NCBI RefSeq assembly: GCF_964355755.1
Contig: NC_092671.1
Span: 6,335,001-6,399,000 of the forward strand
Origin: Antedon mediterranea
Taxonomy: Eukaryota; Echinodermata; Crinoidea; Comatulida; Antedonidae
Reading direction: 5' to 3'
DNA length: 64,000 nucleotides
Translations under genes and position numbers: made by a program
The notes under the pieces: model-generated
Databases searched by the model: none
What the model saw: the letters and a program-made list of their open reading frames with translations, nothing else
What the model was told of the DNA's origin: nothing
Shown here: one piece after another, positions 41,096 to 63,598 of the stretch
How positions within the stretch are numbered: position 1 is the stretch's first letter
How the letters are laid out: every line of letters begins with the position of its first letter

Positions 41096-44000
41096 CTAAC
41101 TTACCACACAAACCTTACTTTGGTTGGATGTAGATTTCGTATGCATGTTCATGACACTCTCTGCCCGTTTATCACGTGCGTTCATGCGTATCTGTTCCGA
41201 TTGCATTTTAATGAGTTCCTGTTGTAAGTGTACGACCATTGCATTATTATCCTTCATTTGCTTCACCTGATTGTTTAGTTCTTCTCGTAACAGTTCGATT
41301 TCATTTTTTAAAGCATTTTCACGAGCCTATTTAAATCAAAATTGTATTAGTTGATCCTGTTTTGATTCTCTTTTTGTTTGTATATATCTGTTTGTTTTGT
41401 CTTATGTAAAAGGGTTTGCAACAACAATTCAAAAAGGAAATAAACTTACCAAAGCAGCATTACTGGCGCCCTCTATCAATGTTTTCCGCTGCGCTTCATA
41501 TTCTTGTTCAAATTCTTGAAGCTTTATTTCTGCATATTTTTTCTCTTCTTGTAACTTATGCACCTCAAGCCTCAACTTAGCTTCTTCTTCTTGGTTTTTT
41601 TTCACCTCTATCATATTAGACTCTTTTTCTTTCATAGGCTGAATCTTGCCATCAATACTCCAAGAGCTATAATATAAAAAAAGTGCAAAAAGCTCTGTCT
41701 ACACTATCAAACTAGATTGACAAAAAATAGTGTGATGTGCCCAAATTTGGTATGGTTATTTTCTTAAGAGATTGTTCTAATTTCCAAAATTAATTTCTTT
41801 CTCCATTTTGTAGGTGGGGACAACAAGTAACAAGTAAAATAATACCGGTTTCTATCCAAATTTTTAAAGATTATTGGAATAGGTTAAAGGATAATATTGT
41901 GAAAGCATAGCAATTTGCTTTTTATAATTTAACTCGAAAATGTAATCATCATCACGGGTAACCATACCTATCTATTTAGGCAACTTAGAAATACTTTACC
42001 TTGTTCGTCCTCTGCCTCTACCAGCCCTCATTCTCATTGGTCGATGTGCTCCAGGGACTTGGACCTTTGACTGCTTGTAAGGAGTTCCTCTATTTGGAGG
42101 ATGTCTAAGAATGAAAAAAATTTATTTTCATAAAAACACGAACAACAAATCATTCATTCTATTTCTTTATCTTTTAAAACCACAACAAATAGCAACATAA
42201 TAGGAGGGTTTTTTCAAATAGACAGACGAAAAACAAATCAGAAGCTAAGAACTTTGCGCCAAAACTGACAAAACAAAATAGATCATCTTATGGGTCACTC
42301 ACATTGATTTCTGGGGTCCAAATGTTAAACGGTTATGTCCAGGCAGCTGACTGAAATGATCAAAAAAATTGGTAAAATCAATACCATATATGAGGAGATG
42401 GCCATGGCTAAGTAAGGAAACACAGTTAGTACAAGTATATAGGTAAGTTATTAAGCTATTCTATCGGAGAAGGTTCAAGGCTTGGATAACTTGTCCTGAC
42501 ACCAGATCTATAGTGTCTCAGATAACAATTTTAAAAATAGAGGTCTAGTGTACACATGGCACAATCACTCGAAAAAGACATGGGCATATTTTGTGATGTT
42601 ACAGCAGTTTGTAGCCATGTTGTTGCTTGTTGTTTGAGTTGGGGCTACTCATAAAGTTGTACATTGATGTGCAGTACATTACCTATTATTGTCAGATTGT
42701 TGGGAGACATCAGTATTGTTGGGTCTCTCTTGGTTGCTTTTCTTAGATGCATTAGTTGAGTCATCTGATTTCTAGTAAACAAATCAAATTATTGAATTCT
42801 TTATAAAAACGCTTTTTAATCAATGTTATACTACACATTTGCCATTTTTTAAAGAAAATACACTATACTTAACTACAAAATACAAATTTTGTAATCTATG
42901 CAAGATACTATCATTAAATACATGGCAGATGAGTTAATTAAATTAAACAAATTGTTGTGCTTTCTTTTCTTTTTCAAAGTAATAGAAAGCAACAAATAGA
43001 TAGTAAAGAGACTAGAATTGTCACAGTAAGGGATTTGGAAGGTGACAATTTGAATATGCATTTTGAAAAAGCCATAATGACACAAACTTGATATGCTGTA
43101 GATATTTTGATTGATTCTTACCTCGCCAGTGTTGATATCATTGTCTTCATCTAGAGCTTTCAAACCTCTAGGTTTCTTTACACCTTAAAACAAACAAGCA
43201 CAAAAACATTTACAAGTGGATGAACAATAAAAAAACAACCAAGTAAATAGTTGCTATACCTTCACATGTAAGCAATGAACAATTTGGTATCATTCGTTAT
43301 CCTCTACAGGTAGTTTACAAAATGACAATGCCATGTTATGTTTTGTATAATAATTATAAGTAATTGATTCTTTAATGCAGAGTCAGTGCTGTGAGAAAAT
43401 TAAAACTTTAATAATTTTGGTGCAGATGTCTTATCTTGCTGCTGTGAAAAGATTGGCGGATTTGTTACTAAACTGACACACTATTGACGATAGCAAACAC
43501 ATGCCATTTTGCATCTAACTTGATTTTTCAACATATATTATGTTCCTCTTCATTTACCTAATCATTCAATTATTATTCTTTTTTCATTTATAATATAACT
43601 GATTTGAAGCAAACTAATTGTGTGATGTGAAAACAATAATCTTCTACAAATGCAAAGTACATTAAAGTGAAAATTGAGAATTTTGACAATGAATGCAGAT
43701 CCAGCAGTTGGTGGCAATAGATAATTTATAAAAAATAATAATAAAACAAACTATTTCCCTTCCACATTTCAAACTGATCGACTGAACGAATCTCGGATCA
43801 ACCATGAATACAGGCTTTCTATTTAAATGGTATATTGCATGATTTTTTATTGAAGATATTGAATATATAATGCCTCCTGCATATAATATCACATACAATA
43901 TATTAAATAAGATATTGTGTGTTATATTATTGTGTTATTAGGCTGACTATTCTAGTATTTTAAATTTTTAATTAATATACTATTTATAGATTTCTATAAG

Positions 44001-47000
44001 GCAATCATAAATAACATATCAAATATATTGTGTGGTTTACTAAATTAGGAAAATGTAAATGTAACGCTACTACAGGTATGCAAATTTATTTGCGTGATTA
44101 CTATTTTTAGAAATAAAAGTATCAAACACCTGTATGATAATGATAATGTAAATAATGGGATGCAGTGGATAGCATTTTACGCTTCTACCATACAAAAACT
44201 AACATACAATATAACATACAGATTTTATTTCCTATTAATTAACATGTAAATGAAGCAACATGCAATATACACAATGGAGTTACCATTACTAGAATCAAGA
44301 TGGTTCAAATCGGGTAGTTCACAAAGGTCTGCATGCATAATAAAAGATTAAATATAGAAAGAAATTATAATAATTGATTACAGTACACACATAGAAAAAA
44401 TGAATTGTAATAAAATGTATTAATATATTAAAGATAAGTTAAACAATAGTTCATGATTAAGTATTTATGATCTCATCAATTATGGATTACAATGTTATAT
44501 TACAGTATATAAATCCAAAGGCAAATTACTGAAGAAATGACAATGCCGTGGGTGTGAGTGACAGGATCTCAATGGAGAAAAGGAAAAAGATAAATTAAAA
44601 AAACATAAATGCCAGGAAAAAGTCCCAAGCTTTTAGCGAACACTTCGTCTACAATAGAATTAGAAAAAAAAGTGGGGAAGGTTGAAAAAAAACCAGGACT
44701 TGGAAAAACGTGAAGAATATTGGAAACAACCAGGATACTATCATCACAGAACAGAGGGGAATGAGATTAGAATGTGCGTATAGGCAATGTAATATATTTA
44801 TAATTTTTGCAATTTTAAAGGAATATAATCAGGGAAGAATCTTCTCTGATAATATAATGATTCATATATTGCGGAAATTTCAGTTATTATAATTTGAACA
44901 CACAATATTAAAAATGATATTTTGATATAGAAAGTGCAAACACGCAGGTTATATCCCCAGTTACATTTACAGAATTTTAACTTAAATTTATTAGTACATA
45001 CCTTTGAGCGCTGCAATGTCTTTGTTTATTTTAATATTAGCCATACTAGCATCGGGTAATAATGCCATTGCATTGCTTTCATCATCACTATCATCGGCAT
45101 CGTTATCATCAGCAACCTCTATAGTCTCTTTCATCTCTTTTTTTAGCCATGTAGGAATCTAAACAAAATTCCACAAATGGAAAAAAAAGAAAGAAAACAC
45201 AGTATTCAGACAAGTATTGCAATGGTTTGAATTGAATTGAAATATTTTATTTATACTGGGCGACCTCTTCAGTCAAAGACTGGTCTCCCAGAGGGCCCAG
45301 TTATGATCAGTGGCTGTGATGTAATAGTACAGCAGGGTAATCCCCTACTCGTCTCGAAAGATGTACTAGGTTCTTTAAAGTGCACACGAGCTAGATGTGT
45401 ACACGAGCTAGATGTGTACACTGGACCTACGGTTTACAGTCCTTATCCGAGAAGACTCGTTCTACCACCAGAACCATGGAGTGAGTTAGCCTTGAACCTC
45501 TGCCGATGTTATGGCTACGTAATTACGGTTCCACTGTCTTAACCGCTTGGTCACTCTCTCCTCCTTGTTGGAGCAAGTGTATAAGCAATGTAAATACATA
45601 AAAAAAAAAAATTAGACTCGGTTGTTCCTATTATTTTTGAGGAACACTGTTATTGTTTTTGTAGCCATCTTCTTCTGAAGACACTTGGCAGTCATTGACA
45701 AATATATTGTATGGTGTTTGCTCAAGATCCAAGTATATACCATGCTACACGTCTTTATTTTTGGTTCTTTGAATTTGATTTCTTTTTTCTGCCAACTTAA
45801 TTACTCCATAAACTTTCTTGTGTTGAATGTTTTCCTTGGCAATAAAGAATTATTATGTACAGTGGGACAAAACTATTAATGAAATAAAGAAGACAAACCG
45901 TTCCCAATGTATCCGCTTCAGAGGTTTCAGAGCTTGTGTAGTCATCTGCTGTGTATGATTTTCTTCCATTCTCAGACTGAGAGTTCTCTACACCTGGTTC
46001 TATAAGAGTCTGTCCACTACTGCACAGCAAAACGAAAAACATTAACAGGTAAAATAAATTGCTTAATATAAAAGGAAAGTATATCAAAAAGCAGCAAACC
46101 TGCACAATAAAATTTGAATAGAAAGTTTTTGAGATTCAAGCCAAAACTAACCAGTGGGGAAATAAGCAAGTTGGTAGAGATGAAAATAAAATGTACTTAC
46201 GTTCGCCTGGTCATGCCTTTTTTCTTTTTGCGGGATCGTCGTCTGGGTGGTGGGGGTGGTGCTGTTGTCTCAACTTGAAGCAGTAGACAATCGCCGTGAC
46301 CTAATACATTATTGAGCACAACTTGAAAACTTTCGCCTGTCTCAGCACTTTGTGACCCAGTGGAATCAAACCTAGAGTACAGAATTATGAGATGAACATA
46401 CAGTAGTGTGGGCCACTACATAGATGTTTTTGTAATTTATCAGATTGTATAGGACCTAATCTTATAAAACCATTTGATTTACCTTCAATTAATAATGTAT
46501 CTGGCAGTATAATATTCTAAATTAAATTGACTACAGACTTACATAAGGATTGGTGTTGGTTGTAAAATAACCTTTGAATCATTTTGTTTATCATCACTAG
46601 TGGTGCTGCCAACACTGGTTACCGTCTTTCTGCTAACTGAGCTTCCTACAGAAATCAATAATAAAGAACAAATTTGATTTTATTATCAAGAGCTAATAAA
46701 GGTTTGAGGAATATTTGGCACATTATCATGAATTATAATGTCATTTGACAATGATAATATCAACTACATTTTACAATTATTTTTTTATGAAATACATTAA
46801 AATGTAATTATTGACCTTCCATGAATACAATACTTGTACAGTAGTTCACAAAGTACATAAATCTTTGAAAGATCTATTAGTAACATTATAATCCAAAGAA
46901 TATCACAGACAGAAAACAAGAGGTGGGATTCTCAACTGCCGTTGATAGGCATAGACAATATTAAACAAACAAATTAATCCATGACAAAATGTGCTGAAAG

Positions 47001-50000
47001 TGATTTCTAACATATAATTTCAATAACATTCCAGAAACAGGTCATTGTACTTAATGAATTAAAAAAAAATTAAAAAGTAAATATTAGCTTTGGAAAAGCT
47101 CCAGAATATAACAGCTTTTGCAATAGAACATTTATCGCATTGTATTGAAAGTTTATAAAAGTTGTGATGGACTTTCTAATTGTCTGTCAAACCATGTGCC
47201 GAAAATACTCAGTGCCTGTAAAATGCATTTTTTGTGGTGATTTAGCATATTAAAATTTCCACTACCATTTTTACAGTTAACAATTTAATAGATTACATTA
47301 TAACCGCTTTAACACACATAATGTAGATGAATTAAAGGCGTGCAATGACTTTCACAATGAGATGGACATCTGAATAGGAGGTACAGTATTAAAGTAAATT
47401 TAAATGTTTGTGAGAAAATGTTCATTACTTTATTGTTCTAGTGCAACATAGTTCATAGTTCAACATAGTTCCCTAAAACAAAATGCCTCACATCAAAATT
47501 ATAAACCAGAACAGATACCGACTAAACATCAATACCAAACAAACTGTGCATCGTGAATCTTACCCTTTCGTAACTTATTCCGTGGTGAATCCATTGACCA
47601 AACAACGGATGCTTGTAGTAATAATTAATAATAATAAATAATTAAACAGAGTATTATTATTATTATTTAAAAATTGATTTTGTGTAGTTTTAGGTACTAT
47701 TGATAATTTGATGTTTTAATAATTTAAAAGATTTTCACGCCTACAATCTATAGTTATATTTAGAAACTTTAAACTGGAAAATAATTAATTTTGAAATGAA
47801 GACATTTATGAGAATAACATGCAAACATCCTACAACATTTATACAGCCTAGGACTGAGACTTGAGGATCCCCTTAAAGCTCTGTCTACACTATCAAACTA
47901 GTTTGACAAAAAAGTGTGATGTTTTTGTCACATAAAGTTTGATAGTGTACACAAAGCTTAAGAAATGATTGTAGTGTATTTGCATATATGCATTATCAAT
48001 CATTTAACTAAACATAAAATCATTCATATAAAAAAAAAATATACGTACCCGAAGGTCTTCTGTCGGTCACTGGTAAAGACTCCTTATCAACAAACAGGTT
48101 GTCTCCACTGACAAGACGTTGACGACTTACAGGCGTACTTTTTGTACCTATAAAAAAGAAAATTATATTTGCAATAAGAATATCAATTCACTCCATGTTA
48201 ATTGAGTGTTTAGTGATCCATAAATCTAGTTTAATTCCACCACAAATTGCATTGCGTTTTTTTCTTAAGCTCTGTCTACACTATCAAACTAGTTCGGCAA
48301 AAACAGTGTGATGTGCCCAAATATGGTAGTGATATGCTTAAATATGGTAGTGATATGATATTATGTCCATATACATGGGCACATCACATAAAGTTTGATA
48401 GTGTACACAGAGCTTTAAAGGTAATTCTAGCATTTATCATAGTTGAACATCACATTACTGTACACTATTGAATAATTTAATCATACCTCATATCATACTA
48501 CTAGATAGATAAAACTACTAATTTTGCCTTCATACAAATTTAGAAAGAATACCATTTCACTATAGAAATATTAAAAAAAAAGTTACTTTTAAACTATGGT
48601 TTTTATTTGATAAGTTTAATTTGTCTCTTAAATTGTAAAGTTTTTCAAGAAATATATCTATCTAACTGGCTGGCTGGCCACCAACTTCCACTCTCATATG
48701 GAAGGCTCGAAACACATTTTTGTCTAGACAGGACATTGTTTTCTTCTTCAAAACAGATACTTATGTTATATACTGGAAACAACACATTTAATAATAATAG
48801 CAACTGACAAAAGCTAATACTAAAACAACAATTTAAATACTGTTCATAATTTCATTGAACAAGTTCCCTTGGCAATCAATTATAAAGGATTCATAAACAG
48901 CAATTTTCTATCACATTTGTAAATAATAACTACAGTAAAAATCAGTTGATAGTTCATTGGCCAATCCTTGATATTATTATGCAATTGTTTTTTCCCCATT
49001 TGTCAAGAGTGTAAATTATCAAATTTGTTCATTACAATGCGTACAATAAAACATATCTTTTAAAAGCAAAAATTAGATATCTATTAAATAAAAATTATAA
49101 AGCTAATTTTAATTGTTAAAAAAGCAATATAATAATATATATAACATTTTAAAAATACAAATGTGTGAGTCTAGAAATCAATTTATGTGTAAGTGTGTCC
49201 AGTATTATTTAAATCCAAAGAGAAATTACTTAAAAAAGTGACAATGCTGTGGGTATCAGTGGTTGGATCTTAATGGAGATACAAATAAAATATTAAAGCA
49301 GAAAGCTAAATCAAAACAGTAAAGTAAAACTGCCGGGAAAAGCTTTGTCGGGGTAATGTAGATGCTATTTTAAAAAGCAAAAATATTAACACAATATATA
49401 TAATGGACTTTATTTAGGGGACACTTTCTGTGAACAAATGATTGAGGTAATATTTATGCCCAACCAATATTCAGAGGACACTGGTCTTGAAGGTGTCCCT
49501 GGGTTCTACTGCATTTCCCAAGGTCAGAATTAAACGTCCAGTGCCCTAAAGATTCTATCATTAATGACCATTATCACAAGTATCACAAATTAAAGAAGAT
49601 ATCTTTACACAGCTAATAAGTAATAACAGTAATTTGTATGTGCCTTTAGCTTTGAAAATCAGTTTTCAAATAACATACCATTTGATACATAAAATGCCAT
49701 CATATCATCAATCTCTTCTAATTATCGAATGGAAATATGCGCAATAGAGCATAAATAGAGTAAATAAAAATATATATATATTGAACAAGCTTTATAAACT
49801 GTATATTATAATAAATATCATAATACTGACATATACCAATATTCAAATTTCTGGATATTATTATATTATAATATTCATATATTACATTTACATATTTTAA
49901 CTATTTGTTCTTCTGTTCGATTGTTTCCTTTATTTTACTTGCCGATATCGGTTTTTTAATAAATACTGTAAAATCAAGAGTTTGTAAAAACGAACATTTT

Positions 50001-53000
50001 GAATAAAGAAAAAGGGAAGAAAAAACACATGGAGGTTCAAACTGTTTTATTATCCTTACCCTAAAATTTATAATTTTTATAAAAGCTTATAATCAAATAT
50101 TAAGTTATATAAAATCTAAATCAACATGGATAACTGCTGTATATCATTTTGGTTTGACTTAATAAAAAAAAAAAGAAAAATGACAAACCTTTTCCGTCCG
50201 AATACGAATGATTTGCATCATTCAAATCAAGGTTGCTACACATAGACGAAAGAGACTCAACACTAGGACTACGCACTGGTGGCTTTTCCCCTATAGGCGT
50301 GGTCATCGACATATCGTTACTGCTTTTAGTGCCCTCATCACTGGTAGGGGGCGAGATCTTGAAACCTCTACCCCACATGTACAGATGATTGTCATCTGTG
50401 CCAGCCACAGTGAAGTGTTCACTACAGGTTATCATCTAAAATAGAGCATTATGATTGTGATTTGTAAAACTATCAAACTAGTTTTTAAAAGTGTGATGTG
50501 CCCAAATATAGTAGTGATATGCCACATCATATTTTTTTGTCACATAAAGTTTGATAATGTAGACAGCTTAAGAATGTTAACATTTTGGAAACATTTTAGG
50601 CCAGCTGAAGGGGCTGGACTAGATTAAATTATTTTATTCTTTCTCAGATTCTACTAGGAATTTAAAGGAGTCATAATCTCCCTAATTACTGAAATCCTTG
50701 TCCACGCATTTGTTTCATCTCGGCTGGACAGTTGTAATTCCCTCCTGTATGGCTTACCAGCAAAGACCATAAACACCATCCAACAAATGAAAAAATCTAG
50801 TTCTAGGATTTTTAACCTCTCTAAATTGAAATAAATTCTTTACTTTAACAGATTTATCAGCCATTTGCCTGACTTGCGCTGGAGCTGTCCGTGATTTCAC
50901 ATCCCCTGTACCAAGTTGACCATCACTGTTTTTTCCAAATGTGTAGACAATGCCAGATTCAATGATAACTGCACTATGGTGTTGACCTAGCATCATGTCC
51001 AAGACGCGGAACGTCGACAAGGGTTTGATAATAGTTGGTACCTTACGGCCGTCAACTTCCGTCTGAATAAAACATCAAATCATAATCACTTTTTAGACTA
51101 CTGTTCGTATTTAAACTCTTTATAAAATAAAATCTAAATAAAATCATAATAACCATGCACAAGCTTAATTTTGCTTGCTCTGGTTTGAATCCCTCTTAAG
51201 TTATCAAAAGGAAAACAATAACAAAAGTTAATCTAAAAGAATCACATACACTTAAGCTCTGTATACACTATCAAACTAGTTTTACAAAAAAAGTGTGATA
51301 TGTGCAAATATGGTAGTGATATGATATCGACATGTCTATATATGGGCTCATCACATTGTTTTTTGTCACATAAAGTTTGATAGTGTAGACAGAGTTATGT
51401 AAAACCAAAAATATGAAGAGTTATGAACTTACTTTAGTAAAAATATTTTTCATTGCCATGAGGAAGCCTTGCCTGTTATTCAGTCCCAACTTGTTAAACT
51501 CATTGTTTCCACAGGCCAGGAGAGATCCCATGTCTGACAAGAACATCGTACCATCCCTACCACATTTAACCATACGGATGTAAACCGACTCTCCAGACAG
51601 GTCAACAGCTTGCGGTTCACAGTGGTTTTCTTCATCTCCTAGGCCTAGCCTTCCATCCTTGCCAACACCCCAGGAGAACACCTCGCCATCAGCTCCGACA
51701 GCCACGACATGATGTGGTCCACAGTCTATGGAGGTGACATCGATGCTTAGAAGAACCTCAATGAGTCTTGGTCTGGAGGCATTACTCCAGTCACCATGGG
51801 CAAGGCATCCTTTGCTGCCATCTCCACACGTCATCACGATGCCATTGTCACTGGCAAACACACTAAATCCATCCCCACAGCATGCCCTGTAGATAAAAAT
51901 AATAGAAAACATTTACAAAAACATCAAGAATAATGTGAATTTCACAAGCGTAAAGGAAAAGTTGATTTATTTTCCAATAAATATATAAACATATTTGATG
52001 GGAGTACTTTTTAACTGTAATTCAGAGATTAAGTTCAGAATTTGATAAAGTAGAACCCAACCTTTGGTACACTCCCAAGGAGAGAACAAGGGAAACGTAT
52101 AGTATGGTATATGGTATACATTTTTTGGGCTTGAAGGCGTTTTCTTAGTGTTTTACTAACATACAGTACTGTATCGTTAGTAAGTAATACTTACTTTGTG
52201 ATAGATTTTCCTTTCAGAGATTCAACAACCTCGGGTGACTGTCTAGATTTCAAGTCTCCGTGACCCAGTTGCCCTTTGTTGTTTTCACCCCAAGTAAACA
52301 CTGACCTTTCACACGTCACAACAATCATATGAGTGGAACAAATCGCCACCTGTGAACAAAAAAATAATAATAGAAATAATGATAATAAAATAAATAATTA
52401 TACAGTATTCCAAATCAAGACCAGATTGAAGAAACTAAAATAACATTTCAATTGTGCATATGTTATGTTTTACAATAACAAATACAGTAAGCCCCAAAAC
52501 TAGAATTTGGAAATTGAATATTGCGATTTCTGGAAATACAGATGTTTAGGCTTTGGGAGTATTAATGATTTAGATTCCAAAAGTTGTGATGCCCCAATCT
52601 TGAAAATAGGTGATAGATTATACCTGCTTAATTTTAATTCTAGATGGAAGATCCACTGGAAACATACTCAGGGTGAGTATATCAAAATGATATAAAACAG
52701 ACCTGGAAAAGAATAAAAAAACAAACAAATGAAAATATAATCATAGCAATACCTACTGTAGTTCATAATAAAAACACACAAGTACAGTAGATTAAAGGGG
52801 CTTTTACACCTGGTGCAGCAGGGTCGGCAAAAATAAAATCGAAAGTCATTGTTTTGTTTACACGCGGCTACATGCATATCGATTGGTGTATAGCCACGTG
52901 GAGCGTCGTGAACTGAGGTTAGATTTTTCTGCCTGCCTTTGGATGTTGCTTTTAGGCGCAAACATATATTTTGTATATATTCAGAGACATGTTTTTGTTA

Positions 53001-56000
53001 CTTTATACAGCGTTATACTCAACTATTAAACTGTACGTATACATAATATGTGCAGAGGTATTACTACTTGTAGAGCTATATTAAATAATACAAAAGCATT
53101 CGCTATTCAAATTACCGTGTTTTAGGCCTATGCCCGGTGTTATTGCTATCGGTGGTGGCCATCATATCATCCTCAAACTCTGACAAAGGGTCTTCAAACT
53201 GGCTTAGCAGGATTGGTAGACGTGCCAACATGAGTTCATTAGCAGACGGTCTGTATTCTGGTTCCCTTTGTAACATGTCTTGTATTAAGGTCTTGAATTC
53301 TTGGCTATAATTCCCCTTCACTGGAGTGAACTGACCCTGAATGTTAAATGAATGGATGTACAGTAACAATTTCAGCATAATCTAAAGTGGAGTGGAGCTG
53401 TAGCTTGGTAGTTAATGTCCTTGCATTCCAATCCAAAGGTCCAGGGTTCAATCCTGACCTAGTGCCAGGGTGGTAATTCACGACTCTTTCCAACTCCACT
53501 CCCTAAGCCTCAAATGAGACTTAGTTTATAAGCATGATAAATTATTAAATAGTTTGAGTTTATCCATCCTGAAATTGGGAAGCTACTCGTACCAGTAGTA
53601 TACATTTCTACTATTACACCTAAAAAATTCAAATATATTGTAAAACAAGAATTATAGTTCATTGTGAAAATAATGGCATTGTAGGTCTATACAGAATCCA
53701 CTGCAATCCAGTTTATTTAAAGAAAAATCAAGAAAAAGTTTTAATAATCAATTGAAGGTCAAAATGAAAAAAATTTAACAGAAAATAGTCATTCAATCAT
53801 TGTTTTTTTTTAAGGGTGCCATATTTTACCTTCATTATTTTGTTGACAAGTGCTGGTAAGTTGGTTCCTTCAAATGTCTTTTGTAGACATGCCATTTCAT
53901 ATAGTATACAACCTAAAGCCCATATATCAGATTTTTCATTGTATGGTTTGCCTTCACACTATCAAAAGTAACGAACATTTTCAAATATATATTGAAGATA
54001 TAAATATATTTGATATCAATACAATATCAGAACTATGTATCCACAAACCTAACATATTAATAACAAATTGAGTTTTTCATTAATCATAATAATTAATCAT
54101 TATAAGCGCATTGAGCACCTTTGGTGGCGAAGTGTGGTTTAGAAATCGTTATTACTATTTTAAAGGTTTCCTTACAATTTCAGGTGAGATGTAGTAAGGT
54201 GTTCCAAGAACTGTATTTGCTCCTCGGTTATTGGAAGACATCACTTTTGCAATCCCAAAGTCACCCATCTTGATGATTCCTTCTTTGGTTAGAAATATAT
54301 TGGCGGTTTTTAAATCCCTGTGTTCGTAAAATGTAAAAATAAATAAAATTTTGATCAATCTTATTTCAATAATTATTCTTCATAAGTAGAAATATTTTTG
54401 CATCCACCCCAAGTATTCTGTAATTCCCTGGTTCAAGTTATTTTTTTGTGCAGCATACCTGTGCAAGACATTGTGATCATGAATGTATCGGATGGCTGTC
54501 ACCATTTGTTGATACATAAGTAAAATCTCCCTTTCTTCAAGTTCTCGTTTTCTCTGCTGGTTGTTCAGAAACTGAGATAATGTTCTAGAAAATACATTTA
54601 TAATCTAAATTACTACATTTTTTTATGAACATTTTAATTATGGTATTCAAAAGGAGTTTCGTATTTCATAATTTTTATTTTCAGTCATAGAGTTGTCATA
54701 TTGACCTCCAATGTAAACTGCCGTTTTCAGTCATAATGTTCAAAATTTTCGCACATTTAATGTATGTGTATTTACACTACATTATGTCATGCACAGGGCT
54801 GAGACATGCAATTATTGCCAGCCTGATTCCCGTAATTGCTTACACAAAGGATACAGTAATGTAGAGTAGGATAAAAATTGTGTACTTCTGTATTGTTGGC
54901 CTGGAGCCCCTATAATAGTTTAAAGTGTACATGAAGTTAACAGTATAATGTTGTAACAATGGCCAAGGTCTAAGGTCTTGCCACATGATATCAACTAATT
55001 ATTTATAGATATAACTAATCCAGTATTGTGTTTGTACTTACCCACCATCAGCATATTCCATCTCTATCATCAGTGTACCATCTTCTTCAAATGAATCATA
55101 GTAACTGATGATATTAGGGTGATCAAGCATACTCAATACTCTAACCTGCAAAACAAATTGAAATAGAGGATTAAATCACTTGCTATACTGCATGTCAGAG
55201 CCACTTCAGTACTTCCAAACAGCGATATCTGCTATAACCTCATTCCGCTTATCATAGCATTTATGACCCACGATGCATTCTGATTCTTACCTCATTCTGG
55301 GCCATTTAAGAACCATGATGCATTCTGTTTCTTACCTCATTCTGGGCCATTTAAGAACCATGATGCACTCTGTTTCTTACCTCATTCAGTGCCATTTAAG
55401 AACCATGATGCTTTCTGTTTTTTACCTCATTCAGTGCCATTTAAGAACCATGAAGCACTCTGTTTCTTACCTCATTCAGTGCCATTAAGAACCATAATGT
55501 ATTCTGTTTCTCACCTGATTCAGTGCCATTTAAAAACCATGATGCATTCTGATTCTTACCTCATTCAGGGCCATTTGTCTCTCTACTGCTGTTAAATCAT
55601 GCATGTTTATTTCTTTTAAGATAACTAAGGAGTCATCATCTTTTTTGCGGTATAGGACTGCAGCTCCATAAGCTCCTGTAAAAAAAAGAACAAATCTCTT
55701 ATAACTGAGAAATAATATGTATATATCAAATCATTTATCCTAAAGAAATATAAATTCTGAAAGGGACTTTTAAACTATTAAAACCTAGCTGCTGTTTATC
55801 TAGCATGGAGATGAGAATTACCTATTACTTACAGTATTTGTGTTACTGTTTGTAGTCTGTATTCTAAATTTAAACTATGAGAAATAAGTTTAAACTAGCA
55901 ACAATGTCGATCAAGAAAAAGTTTTGAATCAAGATTATAACTTGTGACTTAATCCAATTGATATGCAGACCATAGGACATTGCTAAAAAGTGCAACTCTT

Positions 56001-58950
56001 TACACTTTCTGATGGAACACAAAAGGACACACAACAAGGTATAAATAATCTGTATATATTAAATTACCTTTTCCTACAGTTCTAATTTTCTCAAATCCAG
56101 CTAGCGTCTGTGGTTGAGAACTCCAATTTTTCAGTTTATCTGTCTTAAAATAAAACTCACCAACATTTCTTTAAAAAAATAACACCATTATAAATTGACT
56201 AAGGAGTCAATATTTCAACTTCATTCTCACATAGATTATGTTTACTATACTCCCAATTAAAAATTGAACAAAGGTGCTATTGTATATGAACTTGAAAGTG
56301 AAATATAAGGAAGATAAACAGCCTTAAGGTGTTAAAATAAAATATGATATTACAAGTTGATTTTGCATCATACTGTGATATGTTTTTAATCAATTTAATT
56401 CAAGATTTTCTTACCTTTTAACAGTTTCATTGCCTGCCTTTACATGAATGTCATTGCCATGGATTTCACGAGATATACCAACTGGCATCTAGGAAAATAG
56501 AGAAAACTGTTAGATTAATTGGCTCTGGGCTGAATAAATACATTTACAGTATGTAACATTTTATTCATTAAATTGTAAAAAAATAATAAATGCAAAAACT
56601 GATGTAAAGCTCAGGTACAGGCATGAATTTTAAATATAATATTTGGTTAATTGTACATAAATCAAATATTTGTAACAGAAATCGAGACGAAAAAACATGA
56701 ATTTCCCTTAATATGGTCAAATACAAAATTTGGCAAAATTCTTCCATAAAAACCAGTAATTAGGTAGTTAACCTAATGCAATAACATGTCTGGTGACTCC
56801 CTAGACGGTGAAAAAAGATGGTGGATATACGGTGGATAATTTTTGCTATAGCATGAAAATAAAAATCTGAAGTTGAATAAAAATATCAGAAATGTAATAT
56901 TCAAGTTATATTACCTATATTTAGTCATCTGATAACATTTTTTACCACACCGTTTATTTTTCATAGCTTTTTAAAATGCCTCTCTATTTACAAAATTTGT
57001 GTACAAAAGAATAGAGATTTTACTGTGTAATTTGAACTATCCCCCCACTGATATGAAAGTGCTTATTTTCAACAAGCTTGTGTAACACAAATAAAATCCC
57101 ATAGATCGATAATTATTGGAATGTATGATCAATATAAATGTTTTGCCCGCACCTGGCCTTTAAGACCGACGTTAATACACATTGCTTTATGTAATACCCC
57201 AAACTTTCACACTGTCTGTGAATAAATAGACACACAAAAGTGTCTAAAGTGTTAGTATGTATCATTTACATTGAGTAGAAACCTCTGAGAGCTCTTATTA
57301 TAATAAACACTGGAGTTTTGTAATAAAACAAAAAATAATAAAATTAAAAAATAGTGCCCTATAGAAGTAGAAGTTTGGCCAAGGGTGACCTGAACCTTAA
57401 AGTGTATAACAATACAATTCATTTTGACAAACATGGCTGGAAATTTGATGTTACGATATAAAACACATTAAAAAGGGGTATTTTCTTTATTTTCAGCTGC
57501 AATATACATAATACTGATCATGCATCTTACAAAGTATATTTTGTACCCAGCCTGGCGCACTGCTGGCTACCGTGGGTCTATAAAAGCCCTAATTCGAAAT
57601 TCCTTAGTTTCCAGTTTACTTTACTGTACTTACCAATACAATTTTCTCAATTTCAGCTGCAAGTTGCGCAATATCTGGCGTCTGTAAAGCATGGCATGCT
57701 ACAAAGTCTATTCGTTTATTATTGATTGAAGCATCGATGTAGTTTGTAGAAAGATTTGTAAAAAATTGCTTTGTACTTTCCGATGGATTTGTTACTGAAA
57801 GAGCCTGAAAAATAATTAAAACAAAAGATAAAGAGTGAAGCCTAGACCTACAGGAATAATATTGTAGACAAACTAATGCCAAAGACATTGATACACTTGA
57901 CTGCACAAGCAGTAGTCACAGAAGACAAAGATGTATAGTAACAGAGGCTTCCATATCGCAGTTTGCCAGTCATCGCAGGGAATATCCATTAATATACAAA
58001 TAATGAATGTTTATGAGTGCAATGGTACAAATAATGGCACGAGGTGAATGATGAAAGGTTATATCAACGAGGCAAAGCCGAGTTGATATAACCTTTCATC
58101 ATTCACCAAGTGCCATTATTTGTACCATTACACGAATACAAAACATTCATTATTTGTTTTATATAACATCTAGGCGTTTTTTTTTCGTACACAAAAATGT
58201 TTCAAAAAGTACTATTTAACGATCGTTGAATAGTGCGTACTATTGCACGCCATGTGACCCACATTCGTCCAATCAAATGAAAGGAATTTATATAGGTGTT
58301 ATATAATATTATTTAGGTCTTGAGCTGGCTGATGCAAGCATGTGGGCTGTTCTTTAAGAAAACCATACTAGTACATGGCATATTCCCCATATATTTCTGG
58401 AAGAAATGAACTGAAAAACACTGAGTACAAAACAAACCTCTTTTTGGTCGCCACTACTGCACATGACAATAGCACCTGGCTTTGTATGAACTGCACAAGC
58501 TACACTGTGCACCCGTTTGGTCCCTAACGTCTGGCTCACTTGATGTATAATTGCATCCAAAGATGTTCCCTCGTAACGATATTGCACTAATTTAACATTT
58601 GGAAGTATTGCATTTGCTATGGATGAGTAGTTTTTAATCTTACTCGAGAGAATCAATAACCTTAAAGGTTGATCATGTTCTTGGGAAGGCCAGGCATCAT
58701 TTACTTTATCATCCGGGCTTAGACCAATTGTACTCGAGTTTGTATCTTGGTCCGTAGTTAGATTTTCATCAGAGCGGCTGAGTGATTTTGACTCGGTAAT
58801 TTTTCCAGTACTTCCCATCGATGGTGCACCTGATTTCCCTGAAGCTCCTCCAGGGTCATACAAGGTGTTCTTTGATCCTAAGCTGCCTCTGCTCGAACAT
58901 TTTGACAGCTTCTGGACAGTTTCCGTATCACTTAAACTCTTGGTAGACAT
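41096..58950 (-). CDS. NEK9: NEK9-type NIMA-related kinase with N-terminal DUF4347-like domain
   Basis: 28 coding exons join in phase (4347 nt, 1448 residues): 58950-58438, 57804-57634, 56488-56415, 56168-56068, 55675-55560, 55145-55042, 54584-54459, 54317-54176, 53958-53830, 53336-53116, 52702-52624, 52349-52195, 51886-51433, 51062-50844, 50435-50189, 48147-48049, 47611-47564, 46645-46543, 46371-46201, 46019-45899, 45158-45002, 44328-44284, 43183-43122, 42771-42683, 42350-42303, 42104-42000, 41666-41450, 41326-41096. Residues 1-94 are Ser-rich. About 95-245 resemble DUF4347. The kinase (about 275-540) keeps VGKGAYG, Lys307, [11 protein letters not shown] (421) and [12 protein letters not shown]1 repeats (about 566-890) include NEFNKLGLN as in NEK9. 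Then come a long disordered region with PTWLKKE (matching the vertebrate PGWLRKE) and a C-terminal coiled coil (about 1310-1430). NEK9 is known in mitotic spindle and centrosome signalling. The ATG follows an acceptor, so a 5' UTR exon exists. The C-terminus may be spliced differently. Confidence 0.92.
41691..41755. mobile_element. TWA-duplicating MITE, truncated copy 7
   Basis: Only the left half remains (AGCTCTGTCTACACTATCAA to cccaaatttgg). It lies 25 bp from the acceptor-side start of the NEK9 coiled-coil exon at 41666. Confidence 0.6.
44513..44640. repeat. Dispersed repeat pair, copy 1
   Basis: aatccaaaggcaaattactg ... gtgggtgtgagtgacaggatct ... matches 49211-49345. Both lie in NEK9 introns, same orientation. 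Origin unknown. Confidence 0.5.
45225..45575 (-). mobile_element. tRNA-derived SINE
   Basis: The minus strand has an A-box TGACCAAGCGG (45553-45543) followed by GTTAAGAC, and a B-box-like GGTTCAAGGC (45498-45489), similar to tRNA-Leu/Ser. The 3' end is an AT-rich tail with TTCAATTCAATTC at 45230. In a NEK9 intron. Confidence 0.6.
47877..47958. mobile_element. TWA-duplicating MITE, internally deleted copy 8
   Basis: Only 82 bp: both TIRs joined with most of the centre lost. TAA on both flanks. Confidence 0.75.
48268..48414. mobile_element. TWA-duplicating MITE, copy 9
   Basis: Both termini are present with TTA on both flanks. The centre contains a partial duplication of the ccaaatatggtagtgatatg motif. 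Confidence 0.78.
49211..49345. repeat. Dispersed repeat pair, copy 2
   Basis: Diverged match to 44513-44640 (aatccaaagagaaattactt, gctgtgggtatcagtgg, ggatcttaatggaga, ccgggaaaagc). Confidence 0.5.
50467..50572. mobile_element. TWA-duplicating MITE, degraded copy 10
   Basis: Inner TIR parts (actatcaaactagttt, taaagtttgata) and the central gtgatgtgcccaaatat are recognisable, but the outer left end is lost. Confidence 0.6.
51255..51394. mobile_element. TWA-duplicating MITE, copy 11
   Basis: AGCTCTGTATACACTATCAA at the left, its inverted form at the right, and TTA on both sides. It is in a NEK9 intron. Confidence 0.75.
53391..53620 (+). mobile_element. tRNA-derived SINE
   Basis: A-box TAGCTTGGTAG (53401-53411) and B-box GGGTTCAATCC (53444-53454) at normal tRNA spacing, followed by an unrelated body. 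It is in a NEK9 intron, antisense to the gene. Confidence 0.65.
55229..55575. repeat. 45-bp tandem repeat copying an exon end and its 5' splice site
   Basis: About seven units of 45 bp (one with 44), plus a degraded one at the left. On the minus strand each unit carries AAATGGCnCTGAATGAG|GTAAGAA or a close variant, the same as the last bases of NEK9 exon 55675-55560 and its donor. The unit nearest the exon contains the genuine junction at 55560/55559. Confidence 0.9.
56608..57159. mobile_element. Non-autonomous DNA transposon, copy 2 (552 bp), in a NEK9 intron
   Basis: Second copy of the element at 288-883, in the same orientation. It is flanked by TAA on the left and TTA on the right, which fits a TWA target duplication. 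It lies in the intron between the second and third coding exons of the NEK9-like gene. Confidence 0.7.
57993..58163. mobile_element. Palindromic MITE
   Basis: Arms of about 75 bp (caaataatgaatgttt...aggttatatcaac) face each other across a short loop near 58075. The inner 55 bp are almost perfect. It is in the first coding intron of the NEK9-like gene. Confidence 0.75.
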
Positions 58951-61470: not shown

Positions 61471-63598
61471 TTAGTTTTTGCCTCCAAAAATGGCGAGGAT
61501 GAAGAGGAAGATGTACACAATATCGATGTACAGAGTGAGGGCGCCATAGATATGTTCTTCGGGGTCAAGCTCATGACGTTTTCCACCCATAATCAACTGA
61601 GTGTCGTATGCTAAAAACTGAAACAAAAAATATAATAATTAGCAAATGCATATATTTATTTTATTTTGCAAAACAAAATGACTTTAATCAGAATATATAA
61701 TCCAGTCTGCTAGAATCAGCTGGTAATGTTGTAAATAAATATCACCAACGAAACTAACTAGTGGCCGTATTCACCAATCATACTTGCATTAAAATTTTTC
61801 TTACATATTCAGTATTTCCCTTACATTGTATTCACTTAGATAGGGAGATTTCAAGGGTGTTTCCCTTAGCCTAAGTGTGAATGGTGAATACCGTCACTGA
61901 GGTATAAGTCATATGCGCAGTCTGAACACTCTATGACATGTTCATTGTGGCAAGGAGATTGATTTAATTGTAGTGCCTCGTTGGCTAGTGTTTTACCAGA
62001 ATTGACAAAATTACAAATACTAAAAACTTACCAAGCTGAAAAGAACAGCTCCAAGCCAGGCATATACTGTGTACAAAATCTAATGACCAAATAATATTAT
62101 ACATAGTAAATATTAAATCTAACATTCCTAGAAAGATTTGCTTAATCAAACTTTAGCATATTGCGAAGTCAATATATGTAGCTCCATTTTAACAAAACAG
62201 TATTTATTATATGTAGACTGTGTAATGTTGTGCTGCCCATTTTTTTTCATATTTATTGATCATAATTGGAATCACTCATTGTCATATGTACAGTACATAA
62301 ACATACGATGAAAAATATATTCAACAAATCTTCATCACATATAGCATTATAATTTATTAGTATTCCTGATATGGAATTACTGATACATATATAGCATATA
62401 ATAATTTATCTCATCTGTTTTGAAAGTTCAAAACGGATGTGCAATGGGTGTGATTGATTGAAAATTGCCATATGTACTGTAAAACCTGCTTGTTAAATTG
62501 GAAAAGCTGAATTCAACAATAAGAATGAGAATTTTCCATATAAAATCTGTCACTGCAATACTTGGTACAGTAAAGTATTTAAATCTGGTTTATTAAATGT
62601 GGAAATGTAAGCTCATTTCCTAGACAGAAACTCATGATTTTGTAAAGGTTTTTATGACAGGTTAAATGTCAGAGTAAAATTATTTTAAATAGTGTCCAAT
62701 ACAAAATTGTCTTCATCTTATCTATATTTCTTTCTACAAATTTGTAATGACTTATTGAACATTATGTCATGACTTTCCAGGGGTGGATCCAGAATTATAG
62801 ATTAAAATAAAACCGATTCAGTTCGGTTGCAGAAAAATAAATATAGTCATTATTTTATTTAAAAAAAGACATTGCTGTTAAATTTTAGGGGGTGCTAAAG
62901 CCTGTTTAGCCCCTGTCAAGATCAGTGCCTGCTTTTATGCCCTGGAAATATTTTAGTAAAATAGATTTTTCCAGGGTTGCAGTGAACTGTATGAACCCTG
63001 GAGTTGGCCTACATGTAAAACACAAAACTTCACATACATTAAACCTATGATCTTACCTCACTGTACGTAAAAATGGCAATGAATCCGAAGATGAAAAGAG
63101 AGAGACTGAACATGAATAGAAAGCCACCACAAAGGGTGAAGTCAAATTTGGTTTGCATTGAGAAGATGGTTACGCCAACAGTGATTCCCTACAAAATATC
63201 AAGAGAATAAAACAATACTATAACTTATTTATTTTTCAAATTGTAAATTAACTGATTGAAATACTGTAATTTAAAAGGTATACAGTCAACTCTCCCTTTA
63301 CCAGACACTATTGGGCTGACCTAAATGTCTGGCTTTCTGGAAAGTCTAGTATTCGGGATATGTTTCTAATGGTAAAAATGAATTTAGGACCTTTTGGACC
63401 TCACAAAAAGTCTGGTTTTGGGAGAGTTTCCGGTTTTCAGAGAGTCTGGTATTGGGAGAGTTGACTGTACTAAAACTGCATTGATAAATATAATCTGTAA
63501 AAGTAGAAACAAAAATCGCATATTCAAATTGAAAATGATATACATTACTTACACATGTGATTCCAAAGGCAATCAGGACAGAGCTTATGTCATAAAAT
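61471..63598 (-). CDS. Lifeguard / TMBIM (Bax-inhibitor-1 family) protein, 3' exons only
   Basis: Four in-phase exons are visible: 63598-63553, 63188-63057, 62079-62032 and 61617-61471. They encode the last 125 or so residues. The segment carries FSMQTKFDFT, several membrane helices (FMFSLSLFIFGFIAIF and others), LFLAYDTQLIMGGKRH and the closing helix YIDIVYIFLFILAIFG, which is the hallmark C-terminus of Lifeguard proteins (GRINA/FAIM2/TMBIM1 type). Family members sit in Golgi, ER or plasma membrane and restrain calcium release and apoptosis. The first visible exon begins with one base completing a split codon, so earlier exons lie past the right edge of the window. The exact family member (LFG1-4) cannot be decided from this part. 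Confidence 0.92.
61765..61893. mobile_element. Short MITE with inverted ends
   Basis: It starts ccgtattcaccaatcatac and ends gtgtgaatggtgaatac, nearly inverted. About 130 bp, in the last intron of the TMBIM gene. Confidence 0.55.
63282..63472. mobile_element. pogo-like MITE
   Basis: Starts cagtcaactctccctttacc and ends ggtattgggagagttgactg, flanked by TA on both sides. CAGT termini and a TA duplication are typical of pogo/Tigger (Tc1-mariner superfamily). In an intron of the TMBIM gene. Confidence 0.65.

Follow-up and report, generated by a model that had tools for sequence, protein, structure and literature searches.

In mitosis, NEK9 acts upstream of NEK6 and NEK7 in their kinase cascade, and vertebrate NEK9 is described with an N-terminal kinase. 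In human NEK9 the kinase domain is N-terminal, with no domain listed before it, and the enzyme is autoinhibited by its RCC1 region (review, PMC12564199). The mainly bacterial DUF4347 family (PF14252) includes Tce1, a secreted effector candidate of the P. aeruginosa type VI secretion system with a different N-terminal domain, whose structure carries the PDB entry name "DUF4347 domain-containing protein" (9qpe_G); His186 and Cys240 of this protein are reported to line up with a known cysteine-protease dyad, and it has been termed a putative protease (2026, PMC13323088). Eukaryotic single DUF4347 domain-containing proteins have been listed in the snail Biomphalaria and the green alga Chlamydomonas (PMC6744689, PMC10451321), which places the domain outside bacteria as well; these proteins, which we liken to ours by description only, are small (24.7 kDa and 226 residues), with no kinase reported. 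Searching the literature for invertebrate NEK9 N-terminal extensions or NEK-caspase-like fusions returned nothing relevant, and of 5.39 million papers searched, the four that mention DUF4347 do not deal with NEKs.

Here, we examine a 64,000-nucleotide stretch of Antedon mediterranea DNA (the window), in which a NEK9-type kinase gene has been predicted to carry a DUF4347-like domain at its N-terminus. As in vertebrate NEK9 (Nercc1), the modeled protein has a NEK kinase, then RCC1 repeats, then a tail, whereas about 275 residues including a putative folded domain stand before the kinase, which is N-terminal in the human enzyme (PMC12564199). Public predictions may already show this arrangement, though without discussion of it. 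The reading that we favor, and consider reasonably probable, is that the extension holds a strongly diverged DUF4347 (caspase-fold) regulatory domain.

Gene structure and kinase identity

The gene is described by an open coding model on the minus strand with 21 exons and 1183 residues, in which no junction breaks the frame. From the N-terminus, the predicted order is a low-complexity segment, the candidate domain at about residues 94-262, the NEK kinase, RCC1 repeats, and the tail:

58438..58950, minus strand: exon 1, encoding a Ser-rich low-complexity N-terminus (residues 1-93) and the first half of the DUF4347-like domain; open frame, GT donor
Starting within 58438..58950, minus strand: DUF4347-like part of exon 1, where the Pfam match begins; His155 codon at 58486-58488
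57634..57804, minus strand: exon 2, encoding the central part of the DUF4347-like domain; AG/GT borders, entry phase 0
57694-57696, minus strand: codon of Cys208 in exon 2, within RIDFVACHA, aligned to the invariant bacterial Cys
56415..56488, minus strand: exon 3, with a 13-residue segment that is, by alignment, the counterpart of bacterial ADVAASxDLTG; AG/GT borders, entry phase 0
56068..56168, minus strand: exon 4, in which the domain finishes at about residue 262 and the kinase begins
55560..55675, minus strand: exon 5, entry phase 1
53116..55675, minus strand: exons 5-10, remainder of the NEK kinase domain
50189..52702, minus strand: exons 11-15, RCC1 repeats; open joins
45002..48147, minus strand: exons 16-21, low-complexity, basic and acidic tail; open joins, GT-AG borders
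41099..41698, minus strand: exons that probably encode a C-terminal coiled coil and complete the kinase gene; heptad-like ORFs judged by eye

Exons 1-5 are entered in phases 0, 0, 0, 2, and 1, with GT-AG at all borders and no stop. This agrees with the original prediction, which had placed three exons upstream of the kinase and joined them to it without a break through phases 0, 0, 2, and 1 at four junctions; the three exons were found and lead into exons 4 and 5, and every motif quoted for them is present. The same prediction had set the domain at residues of about 95-245, and while a domain is indeed apparent there, it is longer than claimed, running into exon 4 and nearly abutting the kinase. 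Bacterial contamination is ruled out as its source, as the domain is interrupted by in-phase introns and finished inside a kinase exon. When the genome was searched with the domain protein, only its own exons were matched. A PF14252 profile search of this genome at E values up to 10 found no match, as did searches of 14 control genomes, and because it missed even this gene it says nothing on further copies.

The kinase domain (Pfam Pkinase, E 1.2e-64) is of NEK type with its catalytic motifs intact, including HRDLK, DFG, and SPE, and among solved chains it is nearest to NEK1, NEK2, and NEK7. The RCC1 repeats lie C-terminal to it and in frame (RCC1, E 1.3e-60; RCC1-like domain, E 2e-65). In an approximate comparison with the human sequences, the kinase is about 52% identical to NEK8 and 45% identical to NEK9. 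The RCC1 motifs (e.g. NEFNKLGLN) and features of the tail are, in our estimation, reminiscent of NEK9, and the same genome contains a separate gene that we take to be NEK8, at about 74% identity to human NEK8 in the same comparison. As these identities are approximate, "NEK9" is a working label for the kinase in the window. The separate NEK8 gene (C6:30685000-30694000) shares kinase and RCC1 repeats with the protein described here, yet begins at the kinase (MENYEKLRIVGRGAFG), with no DUF4347-like extension.

Predicted fold and the putative His/Cys dyad

Searched against 24,736 Pfam models with hmmscan, residues 94-272 matched DUF4347/PF14252 at 20.3 bits (E 5e-4), with the alignment covering profile positions 1-144 of 164 and the score falling under the curated gathering cut-off of 24.6 bits; within the longer protein the score was 16.7 bits. 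The profile match proposed earlier is thus present, at a level below that at which Pfam would assign the family.

An AlphaFold model of the domain, for which the alignment included 29 bacterial rows, shows alternating strands and helices (pLDDT 59.9, pTM 0.48). Its best match in the PDB is 9qpe_G (Foldseek E 7.4e-4; VIA-align Z 11.4, rmsd 3.4 over 156 residues, 14% identity), followed by SAVED-CHAT (Z 7.0). The comparison with DUF4347 structures suggested earlier gave a solved member of the family as the top match, from a model of low confidence, and the result is partly circular because bacterial DUF4347 rows guided the model; it is consistent with the DUF4347 assignment rather than independent proof of it.

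Folded with its relatives, a bacterial DUF4347 domain gave a much firmer model (pLDDT 97.0, pTM 0.92), which matched 9qpe_G (Z 13.6), SAVED-CHAT (9.5), TPR-CHAT (7.6), and many caspases and legumains (about 7). These matches to CHAT proteins, caspases, and legumains indicate, at the level of a predicted structure, that the DUF4347 family has a clan CD (caspase/legumain/CHAT-like) fold, with the His and Cys following the third and fourth core strands as in clan CD peptidases. This caspase-like fold was found for the bacterial model and holds at the level of the family; it does not extend directly to the domain in the window, which has no sequence-level match in Pfam to clan CD peptidase families (caspases, legumain, CHAT) and is likened to them via the family model. 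One bacterial DUF4347 member weakly matches Peptidase_C80. DUF4347 is still listed in Pfam under "unknown function", though the bacterial family has, besides its predicted fold, a conserved His/Cys pair.

In both HMM and MAFFT alignments, His155 (HTKPG) falls on the His of the bacterial HGxxG motif, and the invariant Cys of the bacterial YGC motif is matched by Cys208 (DFVACHA), which lies at the end of a core strand in the low-confidence model (pLDDT 59.9). The placement of these two residues on putative dyad positions is, together with the predicted clan CD fold of the bacterial model, what is new here. It raises the alternative that the domain is an active caspase-type cysteine protease that would cut, at a set time, either the protein of which it is part or NEK9 partners, coupling proteolysis to phosphorylation, as might be expected from the predicted clan CD fold of the family and from the solved bacterial DUF4347 protein, whose equivalent residues superpose on a known cysteine-protease dyad (PMC13323088). 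However, even that protein is no more than a putative protease, the domain studied here has Thr in place of the Gly of the His-Gly motif, most other conserved columns are altered as well, and a Cys and a His are both retained in 12% of realigned shuffles, so that retention by chance is not rare. We consider an active protease unlikely and a non-catalytic regulatory module the likelier of the two, with protease activity, judged from sequence, possible but unproven. The fuller proposal, in which a working caspase-type cysteine protease and a mitotic NEK9 kinase would share one animal polypeptide, with phosphorylation and proteolysis coupled in cis and the protease half lost in vertebrates, strikes us as slightly more doubtful again.

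Evidence for a probable remote homology to DUF4347

With the domain only about 15% identical to bacterial DUF4347 members, its match to PF14252 was compared with those of shuffled sequences. Nine shuffles of the same residues, searched against Pfam, reached a best E of 0.13, with unrelated families and never with DUF4347. Our own profiles were built from bacterial DUF4347 domains taken from plasmids and genomes; the first plasmid bait was an approximate consensus, and two fetched domains were then confirmed by Pfam at E 1e-58 or better. Against these profiles the domain scored 15.9-17.9 bits depending on weighting, the only respect in which the three settings differ, and ranked first against 20,000 shuffles, the best of which reached 12.1 bits, with a gap of about 5 bits under each setting. 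The reversed sequence ranked near the middle of the shuffles, and an earlier, narrower bacterial profile gave 15.0 bits for the domain and at best 12.3 in 2,000 shuffles.

Other measures were less favorable. With hhalign, the comparison to DUF4347 gave E 8e-4 at a probability of only 24.5%. A count of retained conserved columns seemed highly significant on a fixed alignment, an effect that was gone once shuffles were realigned to the bacterial set; because realigned shuffles keep about as many of these columns, retention was dropped as evidence. In combination with the sub-threshold Pfam score and the low confidence of the structural model, these results leave some room for a folded domain of another alpha/beta family, matched to DUF4347 by chance or by resemblance at the level of fold. 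Such an origin sits poorly with an E of 5e-4 across all of Pfam, with the first rank held under all three weightings, and with similarity that covers most of the profile, in order, and we view it as improbable, to a degree similar to that of the fused protease and kinase. Remote homology of the domain to DUF4347 is probable but not certain, and the proposal of a DUF4347-like domain on a NEK9-type kinase finds support from profiles and, with the caveats above, from structure.

Bacterial DUF4347 domains and the one described here share the order of profile motifs and predicted secondary structure, and a His and a Cys of each fall together in the alignments. In the plasmid records examined, the bacterial domains are found in large proteins whose annotations list repeats or Ig-like domains and never a kinase. 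A tblastn search of plasmids and phages with the domain, along with a scan of viral contigs, gave chance matches only, and a sequence search of the PDB gave none; NCBIfam returned only weak, unrelated matches (best E 0.009) and PADLOC none.

A candidate regulatory domain and its surroundings

Under our preferred reading, the diverged DUF4347 domain would act in the same polypeptide as the kinase. It is very improbable that its exons form a separate gene or a rare isoform, with the ordinary NEK9 starting at the kinase as in vertebrates: a phase-0 ATG at the beginning of exon 3 might offer an alternative start, but exon 4 has no Met and its ORF opens at 56170 (RNVGEFY) right after an in-frame stop at its 5' edge, so that the kinase cannot start within exon 4 and must be spliced from at least one upstream coding exon, while every junction preserves the frame and the similarity to DUF4347 extends over exons 1-4, meaning that the first exon of the kinase completes the domain. 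An isoform initiating at the exon 3 ATG, or at an unseen exon, is possible.

Only some 15 residues separate the end of the candidate domain from the kinase, which makes contact between the two, and a role for the domain as a regulatory module, likely. We propose that the domain packs against the adjoining kinase and may regulate it through autoinhibition, dimerization, or docking, a form of control that would complement that of the RCC1 region on the other side of the kinase; this mechanism is one that we infer from position only. If the assignment is true, the folded domain before the kinase would represent an undescribed layer of control on NEK9, and a mainly bacterial domain would sit inside a core animal cell-cycle enzyme. 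As the original prediction suggested, such a module might be specific to invertebrates or might have been ancestral and lost later. The predicted clan CD fold, for its part, would turn a domain of unknown function into one with a concrete two-residue test.

Several repeats were observed within the gene. A 45-base tandem array (7.1 copies, 89% matches) at 55258-55576 extends from the 3' end of kinase exon 5 into the following intron; because it spans the exon end, that end and the splice donor (CTGAATGAG followed by GTAAGA) are present several times, and alternative donors for exon 5 are possible within the array. In the intron after exon 1, and so inside the DUF4347-like region of the gene, a nearly perfect inverted repeat at 58012-58138 (62-base arms, 89% complementary, 3-base spacer) resembles a mobile element of the hairpin type. 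Introns of the gene also contain recurring short elements, probably a MITE family, that have terminal inverted repeats (AAGCTCTGTCTACACTATCAAACT), at 47876-47959, 48267-48415, 51257-51394, and approximately 50450-50600. Finally, 61471-61638, also on the minus strand and upstream of the kinase gene, holds the last exon of what is probably a gene of the lifeguard/TMBIM (Bax inhibitor-like) family.
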